Shown here: in pieces, positions 2,488 through 28,038 of the stretch
How the letters are laid out: every line of letters begins with the position of its first letter
How positions within the stretch are numbered: the stretch's first letter is position 1
The notes under the pieces: generated by a model
What the model was told of the DNA's origin: nothing
Seen by the model: only the letters and a program-made list of their open reading frames with translations
Database searches by the model: none
Source: a virus
Strand: one strand, 5' to 3'
Virus record (IMG/VR): IMGVR_UViG_3300042934_000441
Coordinates: 1-31,294 of that record
Length of the DNA stretch: 31,294 nucleotides
Program-made: the position numbers and the translations under genes

Positions 2488-3159
2488 TTATGCCGCTAAG
2501 CCTTTGACGGCAGCAGCAGCTTTGTTGGCCATGATCTCAACAACCTTTTTGTAGGTCGTTCCCAATGCATGGTCGCGGTGAGTCAAACGGTTATGTCCGT
2601 CAATATTAAAGGTCCAAACCGTTGAATCGAACTTAAACCGATCTTGCTCAATACGCCAAACACGACTGCCGGTGATGTTCTTATTCGGCGTCATGATAGC
2701 TGCACGGTACTGGTTTTCAATACCGTTCACCAAACGTGCCTGATACATCGCTTCAGCCACACCCACGTAATCGCTAATGGTGTCCGTATTGGATTCATCA
2801 CACGTGCCCAGCAGGTTATCGAAGATTGCTGAGATCAACCGTGAGGTAGACTCGTGCGCATACGGACTGCCTTGTGTGTAGATTGTCGCGCCGTAGTTAG
2901 AGCGATGGTTGAACAACTTATCACCACCGGCAACCGGGCGGTACGCACCGCGCATGCTCCAGTCACGGATGATAACGTTCTCACCCAACTTTCGTTGGTT
3001 ACGTCCAATCCACACGTCATACGTGGTATTGGTGCTGTCTTCTTCAAGACGCAATAAACGCGCCCCAATACGGTATTCGGGTAATTCAATTTCCAACATC
3101 TTCACGTACTGGATGCCGTCGTGTTCTTGGTGCTCAACTTTTACAGTAATCTGTTGCAT
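2488..3159 (-). CDS. Unknown protein (223 aa)
   Basis: A 223-residue protein starting MQQITVKVEHQEHD. The open frame continues to 3195 with two more in-frame Met codons. Only the ATG at 3159 has an SD at proper distance (AAGGA, about 9 nt); the one at 3168 would touch it. The N-terminal third is strand-rich, including YVKMLEIELPEYRIGARLLRLEE. The C-terminus is Ala/Lys-rich (MANKAAAAVKGLAA). There is no membrane segment and I recognise no family. It is flanked by terminators on both sides, so it is probably a single-gene transcription unit. Confidence 0.75.
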   Translation of the reverse strand: MQQITVKVEHQEHDGIQYVKMLEIELPEYRIGARLLRLEEDSTNTTYDVWIGRNQRKLGENVIIRDWSMRGAYRPVAGGDKLFNHRSNYGATIYTQGSPYAHESTSRLISAIFDNLLGTCDESNTDTISDYVGVAEAMYQARLVNGIENQYRAAIMTPNKNITGSRVWRIEQDRFKFDSTVWTFNIDGHNRLTHRDHALGTTYKKVVEIMANKAAAAVKGLAA

Positions 3160-3206
3160 GGTAATCATCCTTTTATTTATGGCACTTTTGGCCATGGGAC
3201 GGTTAT

Positions 3207-3232
3207 AAAAAAGAAGGAGCCGAAGCCCCTTC
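3207..3232 (-). terminator. Rho-independent terminator with UUCG loop, minus strand
   Basis: Minus-strand stem GAAGGGGC / GCTCCTTC (8 bp including one G-U pair) is closed by the extra-stable C(TTCG)G tetraloop and followed directly by TTTTTT. It ends the 360-residue gene about 12 nt after its stop codon. Confidence 0.88.
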
Positions 3233-3243
3233 CAGGTTAGTGA

Positions 3244-4326
3244 TTAAAACTGTTTACCAGTACACGGGTCGTAATGATGACCACCGATCGGGTAACCTTG
3301 GTTAAGTTGCGGCTGGAAATGCATCTGCTGGGTAGTAGATGCTGGATCCATGTGCGGCATACCGTTGGCGGCATCCGTTGCAGGGTGACCGGTAGGTATT
3401 CCTGGGTTACCAAACTGCATTGGACTAAGTGGCGAACTACCCGCACCAAACATCGGAAAATTCATCCCGCCCATCATTGGTTGCTGAGGCTGTTTTGCAG
3501 CCATCGCTTCAGACTCTTCAATAAAGAGGTTAATGAATGCCGGAGAGAAGCCAGCGCGGTCAAACGCCAATACATGCTGAACCAGATGCTGATTGGTAAT
3601 GACTTTATCGCCGTAGTGGTATTCTGTTTCCTGTGCTTGGAACTGCGTCGTCATGTACGCGTACTGACCGGTGCGCACCTGTTCGAAAGTTCTGACGAGA
3701 TGTTCATCAGCTTTGAACAGCCGAGACTGACGAAGCGACGCGCCCAACTCCATGTTCATCAGAGTTTGCTTAACAGTGATGGTGTTATCGAGCACTTTCC
3801 AGATGCGATTATAATCACAGCAATGTGCACGACAATGCGTTTTCACTTCACCGTTTGCACGGTACAACCCTTTTGACAACATCCACTCAGCCATTTTAAC
3901 ACGATCATCAATAACGATGTGCGCCAGGTTAGGTGCGCCAGGTGGTGTCAGCAGTTGACGAAATACTTGCTGGACCACTGCATGTTCTGCATTGGCTTCG
4001 GTGTTGCCTTCCATACCCAGGATGTTAATGCCGAGACGTGGTCGTTCAGCCGTACCAAATGCTGTTCCTAAAACTGATAACCCAATACCGATGCTTAAGA
4101 ACGGTGTGTCTTCACCCAGCGGGTAGAAGCTTGCCACCCATTCACCGTGCAATGTGTTTTCATCGCAGTCCTGGCCGTAGATGACTGGCTTTTCGTCATA
4201 CTCTTCCGAGACCAGCTCAACAACCATCTTAGACGCATCATCGAACTCTGCTTTGTATTGCGTGCAGATGAAGTTCTTTTCGTTGACTGGGGATTTGATC
4301 AGGGACGTAGTTAAGTTAAGGCTCAT
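3244..4326 (-). CDS. Unknown protein with prion-like C-terminal tail (360 aa)
   Basis: A 360-residue protein in two parts. Residues 1 to about 275 look folded. They contain a Cys/His cluster near residues 164-170 (HCRAHCC) that could bind metal, and alternating strands and helices. Residues from about 278 to the end are low complexity, rich in Gln, Met, Pro, Gly and His (for example KQPQQPMMGGMNFPMFGAG and later TTQQMHFQPQLNQGY), with almost no charge. That is the composition of disordered, self-associating segments. I do not recognise the family. The gene has its own terminator and is preceded by an unusually long, highly foldable leader whose last helix can cover the SD (AGGA, 9 nt from ATG). 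This suggests regulated translation. Confidence 0.78.
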   Translation of the reverse strand: MSLNLTTSLIKSPVNEKNFICTQYKAEFDDASKMVVELVSEEYDEKPVIYGQDCDENTLHGEWVASFYPLGEDTPFLSIGIGLSVLGTAFGTAERPRLGINILGMEGNTEANAEHAVVQQVFRQLLTPPGAPNLAHIVIDDRVKMAEWMLSKGLYRANGEVKTHCRAHCCDYNRIWKVLDNTITVKQTLMNMELGASLRQSRLFKADEHLVRTFEQVRTGQYAYMTTQFQAQETEYHYGDKVITNQHLVQHVLAFDRAGFSPAFINLFIEESEAMAAKQPQQPMMGGMNFPMFGAGSSPLSPMQFGNPGIPTGHPATDAANGMPHMDPASTTQQMHFQPQLNQGYPIGGHHYDPCTGKQF

Positions 4327-4548
4327 GTTTCAGTTTCCTATCTATTGGCATTCTTTCTGAATGCAAGGTTTTGAAACTGTCGCGAAATACGACAGTAGAT
4401 AAGAGCCGGTTTCCGGACCAGCCCTTAGATTACTGTCTATTTTTGGAATGTCTTGCAGGACACAGTCCGAGTTGACCCAAGCGGGTTAAATGGAATTGTG
4501 TTTGGCTGAGCGGGTGTCTAGGCCGCTCAGTGTGTTACAGGGTAGAAC
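4327..4548 (-). promoter_or_regulatory. Structured non-coding leader RNA upstream of the 360-aa gene
   Basis: There is no gene in these 222 nt, but several perfect inverted repeats are present. In forward coordinates they are: 4506-4513 with 4523-4530 (8 bp, CTGAGCGG); 4391-4397 with 4431-4437 (7 bp, GACAGTA); 4377-4382 with 4390-4395 (6 bp, CTGTCG); 4331-4337 with 4373-4379 (7 bp, CAGTTTC); 4348-4353 with 4359-4364 (6 bp, GCATTC). The second and third share bases 4391-4395, and the third and fourth share 4377-4379, so they are mutually exclusive. The fourth pairs with the SD region of the 360-residue gene and encloses the fifth as an inner hairpin. The pattern fits a switch, thermometer or protein-binding leader; no known riboswitch class was recognised. 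Confidence 0.6.
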
Positions 4549-4998
4549 TTACTTCGCACCACCGGTCAGGAGGTCGTCAGCCATTGCACGAACGTGCTTC
4601 ACGGCCGCAGCGAGTTCGCCACGGTTCGTACCAGCGGCGTTGGCCGTGTAGGAGCTGATGACATGACCGTTGATGGTCTGTTTGCCGTGCTGGTATTCAC
4701 GCACGATATCGGTGGCAATGGTGTCCGAACCCACTGACAGCGAGGTAGAGATTTGAGACAGCGCGGTGTTGTTCTGCATCACTGGCAGACCGAGTTCACC
4801 GAGTGCCACTGCCTGTGCAGCCATGACTGCGCTGTCGTGGCTCTGGAACTGTTTGCGCTGATCGATAGTCAGACCTTCTGGCAGATTCTTCTCATACCAG
4901 TCCGGTGCGGTCACAGCCACGCCGTTGTCGCCCATGGTCATTGCTGCTTTCAGGGAGTCAGCCAGAGTACGAGTGGTGGCTTTGATTTCTTTTGACAT
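4549..4998 (-). CDS. Unknown small protein, candidate early-expressed (149 aa)
   Basis: A 149-residue protein starting MSKEIKATTRTLADSLKAA. The in-frame ATG 9 nt further upstream touches the SD, so the start at 4998 (AGGA, 8 nt) is preferred. The sequence is Ala/Thr/Ser/Gly-rich with long amphipathic helices at both ends (for example RGELAAAVKHVRAMADDLL) and no membrane helix or cysteine. I recognise no family. A TATATTAC-type promoter element and a 14-bp palindrome lie 45-75 nt upstream. Both flanks are non-coding, so it appears to have its own promoter. That promoter resembles those used by virion RNA polymerase early in phiKZ infection, so it may be made early and in quantity. This is inference from the promoter match. 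Confidence 0.8.
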   Translation of the reverse strand: MSKEIKATTRTLADSLKAAMTMGDNGVAVTAPDWYEKNLPEGLTIDQRKQFQSHDSAVMAAQAVALGELGLPVMQNNTALSQISTSLSVGSDTIATDIVREYQHGKQTINGHVISSYTANAAGTNRGELAAAVKHVRAMADDLLTGGAK

Positions 4999-5042
4999 GT
5001 CGAACATCCTTCTGATGGGGTATGTGGTTTATATGTAAAGTG

Positions 5043-5056
5043 TTCTCTGCAGAGAA
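5043..5056. promoter_or_regulatory. 14-bp perfect palindrome
   Basis: TTCTCTGCAGAGAA is a perfect dyad about 10 bp downstream of the TATATTAC-like element and 45 bp upstream of the 149-residue gene. It could be an operator or a 5' mRNA hairpin (5-bp stem, TGCA loop). Confidence 0.45.
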
Positions 5057-5057
5057 T

Positions 5058-5085
5058 ACACTAGAGTAATATAGGGTTCAAAAAT
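5058..5085 (-). promoter_or_regulatory. Candidate early promoter (TATATTAC class), minus strand
   Basis: Read on the minus strand, an AT-rich stretch (GATTTTTGAA) is followed by CTATATTACTCTAGTGTA. phiKZ early promoters, read by the injected virion RNA polymerase, are known to contain an AT-rich element plus TATATTAC. The same arrangement recurs near 28017 in this window. The upstream AT-rich part also forms a 7-bp inverted repeat (GTTCAAA / TTTGAAC, 5076-5093) right after the stop of the 55-residue gene, which could serve as a weak terminator. Confidence 0.6.
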
Positions 5086-5093
5086 CTTTGAAC

Positions 5094-5261
5094 TCACTCG
5101 CCTGTAATAGGCCAGGTGCTCTGCAACTTCTCTGCAGCGTACGCCATGGCTTTGGCGTGCAGCATCTTAGCATCAAGACCGCTGTAACGGTTATCAACGA
5201 TAAAGGTTTCGTATGCGCTGTTAAAGACATCTAACATTGCTTCCGGAGATGGGCCACCCAT
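5094..5261 (-). CDS. Small unknown protein (55 aa), overlooked short gene
   Basis: I translated this by hand: 55 residues starting MGGPSPEAMLDVFNSAYE and ending STWPITGE before TGA. Its ATG shares one base with the stop of the upstream 175-residue gene (TAATG), the same coupling seen at two other junctions here. The sequence is a believable small helical protein (YSGLDAKMLHAKAMAYAAEKLQ) with no membrane segment. Without it there would be a 260-base gap in an otherwise packed region. Support is the coupled start, intact frame and amino acid composition; there is no homology evidence. Confidence 0.7.
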   Translation of the reverse strand: MGGPSPEAMLDVFNSAYETFIVDNRYSGLDAKMLHAKAMAYAAEKLQSTWPITGE

Positions 5262-5788
5262 TACACTGCTCCTTCTGATTCAGACAACGCCAACTCACCG
5301 TGGGATGCATTCATTGCCACCTGATGCGCCAGCAGAACCATCATCTTCTGGTAACGTGCCTTGTTAGGTCGAGCATAACGACCACTGGTCAGTAGCGCGT
5401 TATTCAGCTCCAGCAGGTTAAGTGACGGGAAGTACACGATGTTGATGAAGTTCAGGATATGGTGAATAGTCACCTCATCGCGGGTCAACGTATAGATCAG
5501 CTGACTGCGAAACGCGAGACCCACCTGAATCGGGGTGTGATTAAACAACGGCCACAATACCACGCTATCCGAATCCTTCCCCAGCACGTATTCATTTACC
5601 CGTGCCAAGAACCCACCGATGATTTCACCCCGGGCATCTTTGTCTTTGGTTTCAGCTAGACGTGGAACCACGTTTTGGTATTCTTCGATAACGCGCATTG
5701 CGATGTCGCAGTAGCGAGGGAGAAAGGATTCAAGTTCCTTCATCGCCAGAAACGCACGAGCGACACTGTGCGGTGCATTAATAATCAT
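5261..5788 (-). CDS. Unknown helical protein (175 aa)
   Basis: A 175-residue protein starting MIINAPHSVARAFLAMKELE. The frame extends to an ATG at 5806, but AGGA lies 7 nt before the ATG at 5788, which is therefore the likely start. It is mostly helical with no membrane segment or clear motif. The middle has hydrophobic stretches such as ILNFINIVYFPSLNLLELNNALL. I recognise no family. It is the first gene after the terminator behind the prohead protease gene, and it is coupled to the 55-residue gene through TAATG. It is thus probably the head of a two-gene unit. Confidence 0.75.
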   Translation of the reverse strand: MIINAPHSVARAFLAMKELESFLPRYCDIAMRVIEEYQNVVPRLAETKDKDARGEIIGGFLARVNEYVLGKDSDSVVLWPLFNHTPIQVGLAFRSQLIYTLTRDEVTIHHILNFINIVYFPSLNLLELNNALLTSGRYARPNKARYQKMMVLLAHQVAMNASHGELALSESEGAV

Positions 5789-5860
5789 GATCACTTCCTG
5801 GTTCATTATTAGACATAAGAGTGGGGTAGTTGGTACGATAATACACAGGCCGGCATAAGA

Positions 5861-5878
5861 GGCAGGGTTTCCCCTGCC
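5861..5878 (-). terminator. Hairpin terminator after prohead protease gene
   Basis: Minus-strand stem GGCAGGG / CCCTGCC (7 bp) with a GAAA tetraloop lies 10 nt past the protease stop codon. Outer bases CATA/TATG can extend it. The following sequence is only moderately T-rich (TCTTATG), so efficiency may be partial. The outer CCGGCATAAGAG sequence is repeated at the terminator near 25811. Confidence 0.65.
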
Positions 5879-5887
5879 CCGTATGTG

Positions 5888-6670
5888 TTACCAACGCAGT
5901 GAGGTCGGACGCAGAATCGGTGAGTTGTCACCGGCTTCGTAATCGTTCATCATGATCTGCAGTGCCGTGGTGTCATTGAAATTAGACTCCAGGCCGTAAC
6001 CCTGACCGCCAGCATTCTGACTGGTGATGATCTCGTTACGGATAACGGCAGGATCGAACTGGTAGTCACCAAACGACTCCAGACCCGGGGAATGATACTT
6101 GGTGGCATTACGCACACCTGGCTCAGGCACCCAGTCCCACGTCACCAGCTCGTATACGTCTTTCTTCCACGCCATACCCATCATGGTATCGAGTGTCAGT
6201 GAACGCACAGAGAAGCAGGTGTCTTCGCTGGAGTTTTCCAGTGACGCTAACAGCTTGTCACCGATCGGACCACCCACAGGTTTGATTTCACCCAGCACCG
6301 CTACCATCTGCTCATTGCGGTGAGACTTGAAGTTGTTGAAATCAAGTTCTACACTGCGGAGGTGCAACGCCCAGTTACTCATGTCGAGGTAACGCAGACG
6401 GGAGAAGTACTGCTGTTGTGACATCCCCGGTTGAATCTTCGGATGGTCTTGTTCACCACGCAGGTGACCGCGTTCAATACGACGCATGAACGAGGAGGAC
6501 TTTAAGAAGATCTCTTCCAGGTATTTGTTGAACGGGTAGTAGTTACCGGATTCGTTATGGATGTTAAAGCCACCCAATACCACGGTCCAGTAACCATCCC
6601 CGCTCGGCTTTAGCGTGCCGGCTTTATTTGTGCCACGTAACGTCTGGCACGAAAACGTAATGTTCGACAT
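5888..6670 (-). CDS. Prohead (morphogenetic) protease, phiKZ gp175 / T4 gp21 type
   Basis: This 260-residue serine protease is expected to act inside the prohead, cleaving scaffold, inner-head and other packaged proteins before DNA filling. The opening strand VVLGGFNIHNESGNYYPF leads into a helix and RGEQDHP, where His76 is the likely catalytic histidine. Ser154 in CFSVRS is the likely nucleophile; the same His-then-Ser layout, about 55-80 residues apart, is seen in herpesvirus-fold prohead proteases such as T4 gp21. In phiKZ the enzyme (gp175) lies near the virion RNA polymerase genes gp178/gp180, and the spacing here is similar. The ATG has an AAGGA SD; the gene is 12 nt downstream of a 239-residue virion-type gene and ends in a hairpin. 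The third catalytic residue was not identified. Confidence 0.85.
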   Translation of the reverse strand: MSNITFSCQTLRGTNKAGTLKPSGDGYWTVVLGGFNIHNESGNYYPFNKYLEEIFLKSSSFMRRIERGHLRGEQDHPKIQPGMSQQQYFSRLRYLDMSNWALHLRSVELDFNNFKSHRNEQMVAVLGEIKPVGGPIGDKLLASLENSSEDTCFSVRSLTLDTMMGMAWKKDVYELVTWDWVPEPGVRNATKYHSPGLESFGDYQFDPAVIRNEIITSQNAGGQGYGLESNFNDTTALQIMMNDYEAGDNSPILRPTSLRW

Positions 6671-6682
6671 ACGACGTTCCTT

Positions 6683-7402
6683 TTACGAATCAGTTAACCC
6701 CAGATTACCGGCACCGAGCTTCTTGTGAGAAGAGTATTCGCCGCTGGTAATAGGAAGCACGATGATATCTTGGGGGTTACGCAGATCCATTGCTTCGAAC
6801 CAGTTGTTGTAAATCAGTTTGTAATACCCAGCACGCAATACCGTTGATTTGTTCAGCGGCAGCATGTTCCCTTCAGCAATTCGGACGTATGCTTTCACCA
6901 CCACTTTACGGGGCAGCTTCGCATCACTGGTGGCTTCACGCCCCACCTTCGTAAAGAAGATCTCACCAATTGGTGTTGCCGGATAACGCACATGTGCTTT
7001 GTTGTACGGTACCAGCCAAACTTCTTCCGTGGAATCCGCATCGCCCAGGATTTTCTTATTGGGCTTCAAGGCCACTTCATAATTGATCGCGTAGATCTTC
7101 CACCCACCCGACCACTTTTCCGCATCCATTTGTTCCCAGTCGTACAACGCCGAACTGTACCCAGACAAACAACCGTTCAAGGTGCCCGCTGTAGAAACAC
7201 GAGGAACAGAACGGTCCTCCCGATTCATAGTGCGACGCGATACACGCGGTTCAAATGACTTAAGGCTGTTGTTGGTACTAATGTGGAACACCACCCCCGA
7301 CGAGTTCGCCGGGGTAAGAATGTCGACATTGTTACCGATGGTATTTGGCCAATACTCCAAAAACCGACGCATGTCCTGCAGGTCAGTGTTATCGTCCACC
7401 AT
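6683..7402 (-). CDS. Unknown protein with HxS..PRVS signature (239 aa)
   Basis: A 239-residue protein. Residues 39-83 read FHISTNNSLKSFEPRVSRRT, then ED..VPRVSTAGTLNGCLSGY. This is a recognisable conserved block (His-x-Ser, Pro-Arg-Val, acidic pair, second PRVS, GCL) seen in phage proteins whose fold I cannot name with certainty. It loosely recalls the first strands of ADP-ribosyltransferase-like domains, a tentative idea only. The C-terminal half is strand-rich (KVVVKAYVRIAEGN). Its ATG shares one base with the upstream stop (TAATG) behind a strong GAGGAG SD, and it is 12 nt upstream of the prohead protease, so it is part of the late structural operon. Confidence 0.78.
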   Translation of the reverse strand: MVDDNTDLQDMRRFLEYWPNTIGNNVDILTPANSSGVVFHISTNNSLKSFEPRVSRRTMNREDRSVPRVSTAGTLNGCLSGYSSALYDWEQMDAEKWSGGWKIYAINYEVALKPNKKILGDADSTEEVWLVPYNKAHVRYPATPIGEIFFTKVGREATSDAKLPRKVVVKAYVRIAEGNMLPLNKSTVLRAGYYKLIYNNWFEAMDLRNPQDIIVLPITSGEYSSHKKLGAGNLGLTDS

Positions 7403-27457: not shown

Positions 27458-27982
27458 CTAAACGCTACGTAAACCACATTCCAACGTGCCGGCAAACACA
27501 ATTAACAGTTCAGTGTATAACGGTGTCAGTTTTCGCAGAATGTAATCACGGTCAATGTCGTCCACCTGATACACCAAGTCGCACAACAGATTAAGCTGGT
27601 TGATAAAGGCGTCGTAGAACTCGGGGATATCGAGAACGTTGCCATCTTCATCAACTAACCAATCGTAGAGCGACATCACCCGTACGTCCTGCAGGTAACG
27701 ATAGGTGATTCGGGCTTCAGGTAACGACCCAGACTCAGAGGAGAGGTGCTCATTGATTTCCTTTACGGTGGTCAACAATTCCACGCCTCGGTGAGTCTGT
27801 ACTCTCAAGCGCACGTCCAACATGCAACGCACGCTAAAGTATTCTATGGGATTGTCACTGTTGATGACTTTGCGTAATGCGCCCAGCACGCGTAATCCAT
27901 CATCGGGCTTGTAACTATCACGTCGTGCTTTCTCCAGCCCTGAGAGCAGACGATTCAACAGCAAACGTTTTAAGAACCGCAT
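27458..27982 (-). CDS. Unknown protein, candidate early-expressed (174 aa)
   Basis: A 174-residue protein starting with a very basic helix (MRFLKRLLLNRLLSGLEKARR), which could bind nucleic acid or membrane surface. The rest is acidic and helical (DVRVMSLYDWLVDEDGNVLDIPEF; a Leu-rich C-terminus). I recognise no family. It has an AAGGA SD and an ACCCATG start context, and lies 35 nt downstream of a TATATTAC promoter element almost identical to that before the 149-residue gene. The gene for the possible HTH protein follows, giving a two-gene unit ending in a strong terminator. Early expression is inferred from the promoter. Confidence 0.76.
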   Translation of the reverse strand: MRFLKRLLLNRLLSGLEKARRDSYKPDDGLRVLGALRKVINSDNPIEYFSVRCMLDVRLRVQTHRGVELLTTVKEINEHLSSESGSLPEARITYRYLQDVRVMSLYDWLVDEDGNVLDIPEFYDAFINQLNLLCDLVYQVDDIDRDYILRKLTPLYTELLIVFAGTLECGLRSV

Positions 27983-28010
27983 GGGTAGTCCTTAATTCAG
28001 TTCCACTTAC

Positions 28011-28038
28011 ACACTAGTAATATAGTCCTGAAAATTCT
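28011..28038 (-). promoter_or_regulatory. Candidate early promoter (TATATTAC class), minus strand
   Basis: Minus-strand GAATTTTCAGGA followed by CTATATTACTAGTGTGTA. It shares the TATATTAC core (28017-28024), the AT-rich block upstream and the following TAGTG with the element at 5066-5073. It sits in the divergent gap between the 174-residue (minus) and 146-residue (plus) genes, and the orientation given fits the minus gene. The plus gene has no separate visible promoter. Confidence 0.62.

Follow-up and report, generated by a model that had tools for sequence, protein, structure and literature searches.

Translational riboswitches are built from mutually exclusive helices, one of which hides the Shine–Dalgarno (SD) sequence, and an RNase III processing site spans roughly two helical turns that are often interrupted by an internal loop. 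The early RNase III hairpins of phage T7 are interrupted duplexes that lie between cistrons. For E. coli adhE and lambda cIII, the introduction of PMC5371410 describes a ribosome binding site (RBS) that is hidden in structure until RNase III cuts a nearby duplex; the same paper cites the processing of T7 early mRNA by RNase III. Our literature search found no cis-acting RNA switch described in jumbo phages with their own RNA polymerases. The words riboswitch, non-coding and intergenic are absent from PMC6690015, and the accessible sections of a 2026 jumbo-phage review mention phiKZ non-coding RNAs and name neither riboswitch nor UTR (PMC13282480). Here we describe a 222-nt intercistronic element that we regard, with moderate confidence, as a two-state translational RNA switch in an early two-gene transcript, OFF by default. 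The mechanism class is known, while the element itself appears to be undescribed; what makes it unusual is that a hairpin of the 3' processing type is coupled with a proposed antisequestor for the gene that follows.

The element resembles each of these systems in part. As in adhE and cIII, the RBS would stay hidden until a nearby duplex is cut, cleavage of the element being our proposal; however, the cut would act indirectly here, by freeing an arm for a conserved antisequestor. Like the T7 early hairpins, it places an interrupted duplex between early phage cistrons, yet its phage has its own multisubunit RNA polymerases and the element also has a competing hairpin extending to the RBS of the following gene. 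It shares with translational riboswitches the exclusive helices, one of them predicted to hide the SD, but it has no known ligand or aptamer, lies between two cistrons, and is in part retained as a 3' element. A small-molecule riboswitch would account for the layout of sequestor and antisequestor; it is nevertheless very unlikely, as a search of Rfam 15 returned no match at E up to 5 across window positions 3000–6800 and none at gathering for L002 and L005, and what is conserved amounts to simple hairpins, with no junction of several helices.

The window, i.e. the whole stretch of 31,294 nt that was analysed, is a 31 kb virus record with phiKZ-like jumbo phage gene content, including matches to the head maturation protease family S80 and to the RNA polymerase beta subunit. 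By DNA it is related to Salmonella phage SA002, to Erwinia phages SNUABM_37/48, to the Agricanviruses Ea35-70 and RAY, and to others; the genome that carries the gap is that of a phiKZ-like jumbo phage of the Agricanvirus/SA002 group. On the minus strand, the 222-nt gap separates the genes of a 152-aa and a 360-aa protein (Table 1). A preliminary description of this DNA had called so long a leader rare, and it does top the 29 gaps between chosen genes, the next measuring 86 nt and 19 of the 29 being shorter than 20 nt. Homologues of the 152-aa gene occur in 23 phage records, and no relative of its protein was found in the bacterial genomes searched. The structure model of the 152-aa protein (pLDDT 68) has no PDB match at E up to 0.001, and that of the 360-aa protein reaches a pLDDT of 50. 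Past the terminator, the 235-aa gene (window 2488–3195) is distantly paralogous to the 360-aa gene (phrog_11391; HMM E 7.9e-12). Two annotation problems were seen in relatives: Desertfox gp175 (L004 4839) is annotated to start 198 nt within the conserved frame, and AH06 gene 183 (L006 8005–8178) is called within the structured leader.

Table 1. Positions of the leader structures, flanking genes and transcription signals in the window
Feature	Position	Strand	Basis or remark
Early promoter motif (virion RNA polymerase type), CCTATATTAC-N4-GTG	5059..5075	(-)	upstream of 152-aa gene
Upstream cistron, 152 aa	4549..5007	(-)	ORF; phrog_9746, unknown function
Hairpin A, loop CCTAGACAC; 8 bp, in relatives as many as 11 bp	4506..4530	(-)	fold and comparison
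Hairpin B: helices of 5 bp (outer), 7 bp (basal) and, beyond an internal loop, 11 bp (apical)	4385..4442	(-)	fold and comparison
Alternative hairpin B', ACTGTCG/CGACAGT	4376..4396	(-)	5' arm common with B, 3' arm with C
Helix C (4373–4379 with 4331–4337)	4331..4379	(-)	encloses hairpin D; pairs SD end and spacer
CCT just before D	4366..4368	(-)	can pair with AGG of SD; in 7/7 gene-bearing lineages by reading
Hairpin D, GCATTCAGAAAGAATGC	4348..4364	(-)	identical in 7/7 gene-bearing lineages
SD AGGA of 360-aa gene	4336..4339	(-)	sequence
Downstream cistron, 360 aa	3244..4326	(-)	ORF; phrog_11391, unknown function
UUCG-loop terminator-like hairpin and T run	3212..3233	(-)	after 360-aa gene

The promoter motif was counted in 16 loci, four short ones being excluded. 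Before the 152-aa gene, TATATTAC is exact in 14 loci and has one mismatch in another; it is missing in L016, whose contig begins inside the 152-aa gene. The motif is given for phiKZ and 201phi2-1 in PMC7058600. None of the 16 leaders contains TATATTAC within one mismatch, leaving no second promoter there by motif, and UUCG terminators stand past the downstream gene in the window, L008, L009, SA002 and L016. An early promoter upstream, none in the leaders and a terminator after the downstream gene together suggest that the two genes probably form a single early transcript. Mass spectrometry of RAY and Deimos-Minion lysates detected the 152-aa homologue at 58.1% and 61.5% coverage, respectively (PMC6690015 Table 3); Deimos-Minion gp179 is that homologue by sequence match, and RAY gp173 by table row only. 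The 360-aa homologue, the next gene product, is absent from the same table, an absence that counts as weak evidence. Elsewhere in the window, another early-promoter-like TATATTAC site (28010–28026, minus strand) precedes a 174-aa gene (27458–27982).

The competing stems named in the preliminary description are all present on the minus strand. GACAGTA/TACTGTC pairs 4431–4437 with 4391–4397 within hairpin B, CTGTCG/CGACAG lies within the 7-bp helix of B' that pairs 4390–4396 with 4376–4382, and CAGTTTC/GAAACTG is helix C. Their exclusive pairing was confirmed, B and B' having 4391–4396 in common and B' and C 4376–4379. Stem length by itself is only mildly unusual: the leader has four perfect stems of at least 7 bp, where 300 dinucleotide shuffles average 0.98 (four or more in 1% of them), and eight of at least 6 bp, where the shuffles average 3.9. 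The fold energy of the leader is -74.3 kcal/mol (z = -4.5), which 0 of 200 shuffles matched, and the minimum fold of the window contains both B and C, in keeping with the earlier proposal. Compensatory changes, by which that proposal could be judged, were found in B, B' and C, those of C only in a hand-set register.

For the comparison, 20 loci carrying the element were extracted and reduced to nine lineages by setting aside, as near copies, L008, L009, L028 and the near-identical Agricanviruses (L029–L032, L040–L043). Seven lineages bear the downstream gene, namely the window, L016, SA002, Desertfox, L015, Ea35-70 and AH06, and the independent lineages number only about three to five. Compared in this way, hairpins A and B are conserved across the nine lineages with many compensatory changes. 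In a hand-made structural alignment, whose counts lean towards structure, hairpin A is paired in 64/64 cells over 8 pairs in 8 lineages, with both sides changed at 6 pairs. There, the apical part of B is paired in 98/99 cells with 7 pairs changed on both sides, and the basal part in 52/63 cells with 3 such pairs. The whole of B is weaker in an unfitted MAFFT alignment (81% paired; 26/500 shuffles reach its count of both-side-changed pairs), because MAFFT misplaces the apical loop (80.5% paired versus the 98/99 cells above). A model of B and D (R1) gave a match at E up to 1 in 7/9 records, below 0.01 in six; the seventh, Proteus phage 10, has four weak matches (E 0.058–0.89), the best of which overlaps a gene end, and LucasX and SNUABM_54 have none. 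A model of hairpin A (R2) matched at the element in 7/9 records (E 8e-10 to 0.2), and its further matches (E 0.019 and above) look like chance.

Several further observations concern A and B. The loop of A (4514–4522) and the 5' side of B (4433–4440) have UAGACA in common in the window and the Agricanvirus lineages, and SA002, SN48, L016 and L035 carry UAAGACA at both places. The stretch 5' of B (4439–4450), which reads CATTCnGAAAAAT in several of the lineages, looks like the 5' part of D (CATTCAGAAAGAAT), and the two are perhaps sites for one protein. A copy of hairpin A (10 bp, loop ACTTTAGACAC) is found in Erwinia phage pEa_SNUABM_54 (L027 4128–4158, record 106650–106680). The leader that holds it belongs to a 311-aa gene, distantly homologous to the 360-aa gene, which sits downstream of a 152-aa homologue (36% identical). 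This leader also contains CATTCCGGAAAAAT, and R1 finds nothing there. Reading the sequences also suggested that loop A might form a pseudoknot with the 3' arm of B, but this fails in L016 and was dropped. A conserved leader peptide was likewise rejected, as a small frame with an SD-like site exists only in SA002 and L016, starting inside the loop of B.

Two lineages are without the downstream gene. L035 and L016 have in common the 3' end of the 152-aa gene, A, B and the following gene, yet the homologue of the 360-aa gene, of 338 aa, is missing from L035, whose sequence reaches a UUCG terminator just past B. In SNUABM_48/37, B is followed by a UUCG terminator and then by the homologue of the window's 235-aa gene. 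Both lineages keep A and B, and neither has D, C or the 3' arm of B'. Since the junctions differ, we read them as two separate losses, the direction of the change being what we infer. The element thus appears to split into two parts, A and B going with the upstream mRNA, and the 3' arm of B', C and D with the downstream gene. That A and B are kept without the 360-aa gene suggests that this half also serves the upstream 152-aa mRNA. The element had been presented as the leader of the 360-aa gene; it is indeed a structured leader, but not only that. One could go further and regard the structure mainly as a 3'-end or processing/stability element of the 152-aa mRNA, such as an RNase III site or an exonuclease block, with any effect on the RBS incidental. 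The persistence of A and B in the two lineages, with a terminator directly after B, speaks for this, as does the form of B, which folded alone is a 20–25 bp interrupted duplex in the seven gene-bearing lineages and fits an RNase III site. We nevertheless judge this account unlikely, because it leaves unexplained the invariant hairpin D beside the SD and the alternative hairpin B', whose arms covary and whose 3' arm is present in 7/7 gene-bearing lineages.

The alignments of the seven gene-bearing lineages demonstrate that the competing hairpin B' is conserved. In the hand-made alignment, 61/66 cells of B' are paired and 4 pairs are changed on both sides, while slid versions pair only 15 to 28 cells of 62 to 66. 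B' also stands out in the unfitted MAFFT alignment, with 96% of 49 cells paired and 3/7 pairs changed on both sides; slid versions there are 25–44% paired, and 1/500 shuffles reaches three both-side-changed pairs. When all 7-pair helices of this alignment were scanned, only B' and its one-step neighbour combined at least 90% pairing with at least 3 both-side-changed pairs, and 0/300 column shuffles that keep relatedness have such a helix. Pairs 6–9 of B', whose 3' letters take part in neither B nor C of the window, covary in the window, L016 and AH06. Two exclusive helices, the basal part of B and B', therefore each carry compensatory changes, those of basal B in the hand-made alignment and more weakly in the unfitted one. 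A chance foldback without function, for which the mild excess of perfect 6–7 bp stems might argue, is refuted for A, B and B' by their covariation and is negligible for the element. Competing hairpins are also typical of transcription attenuators, in which B' or B would end transcription. However, in the gene-bearing lineages neither B nor B' is followed by a T run (by reading), whereas the terminators of this group carry one together with a UUCG loop, and scanning the leader for terminators gave no candidate on the minus strand, so that an attenuator is very improbable.

Helix C had been said to cover the SD of the 360-aa gene. In the window, it takes in the spacer and the final two bases of AGGA, while the first two are mostly free. 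Compared with shuffles of the 5' segment, the duplex energy of C gives P values of 0.004 in the window, 0.0025 in L016, 0.041 in SA002, 0.0275 in Desertfox, 0.0165 in L015, 0.11 in Ea35-70 and 0.73 in AH06; the helix is clear in 5/7 lineages, weak in Ea35-70 and absent in AH06. The CCT before D is fully paired to AGG of the SD in the duplexes of three of the seven (Desertfox, L015 and Ea35-70). In the hand-set register, pairs 5 to 7 of C show T-A/A-T, T-A/C-G and C-G/T-A replacements, while the unfitted seven-lineage alignment gives C no covariation support. The minimum fold of SA002 pairs the RBS region differently (P(C) 0.26), and that of Desertfox has neither C nor full B'.

We then compared the predicted energetics of the two states. 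Folds with B forced are the minimum or within 0.4 kcal/mol of it in 6/7 lineages (1.6 in AH06), whereas folds with B' forced lie 1.8–3.7 kcal/mol over the minimum in all seven. The free fold prefers B in 6/7 lineages (P 0.74–0.99; 0.50 in AH06), and at equilibrium B is thus predicted to be preferred, with the RBS mostly hidden. The predicted cost of opening the RBS with B' versus B is 4.1/8.1 kcal/mol in the window, 3.6/5.4 in SA002, 3.1/7.7 in L016, 3.1/4.2 in Desertfox, 3.5/5.1 in L015, 2.4/5.0 in Ea35-70 and 2.7/3.1 in AH06, i.e. lower with B' in 7/7 lineages, yet near equal in AH06. Removal of the 5' side of B before folding the leader brings P(B') up to 0.83–0.97 and leaves P(C) at no more than 0.11 in all seven, although the opening cost falls little in Desertfox (0.2 kcal/mol) and AH06 (0.3). 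An RBS that sits within a helix could also act as an RNA thermometer, an idea raised by the preliminary description. The predictions contradict it, as pairing hardly shifts between 15 and 45°C in the five lineages folded, and a thermometer is highly improbable.

We propose the following mechanism for the two-state switch. In the intact RNA, B would form first and hold the strand needed by B', so that the 3' arm of B' is left free to form C around the RBS; the 360-aa gene would then be translated poorly (OFF). Because B forms before B' during transcription, the ON state should be rare without a trigger. The trigger would be the opening or cutting of B, for which the most plausible agent is an RNase specific for double strands, host RNase III for example, and otherwise a phage protein that binds a conserved stretch on the 5' side of B. 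The strand thus released would fold into B', breaking C and exposing the RBS (ON). B may in addition end or protect the upstream 152-aa mRNA, which would explain its retention after loss of the downstream gene. The earlier statement that the chain of helices looks like a switch holds in that exclusive helices are conserved, while the switching itself, its direction and its trigger are what we infer, and C is weak in Ea35-70 and absent in AH06.

The nature of the trigger can be given only tentatively. One possibility, which we put forward with low confidence, is a processing-triggered switch, in which cutting B would both end the first early mRNA and free the antisequestor strand, so that the second protein is made only after mRNA maturation. 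Equally tentative is a translational operator triggered by a phage or host protein that binds the UAGACA-like sites (loop A and the 5' outer arm of B) or D; it would be the same switch set off in another way and overlaps the preferred explanation. It draws on the motif shared by loop A and the 5' side of B (UAGACA or UAAGACA by lineage) and on the invariance of D where other stems drift. However, the motif link could stem from one or two ancestral changes, and neither protein model gives a usable fold match. The element is compact, comes with a natural deletion series in the two lineages without the downstream gene, and is present in cultured phages, among them RAY, Ea35-70 and SA002, making the post-transcriptional timing of early jumbo-phage genes directly testable.
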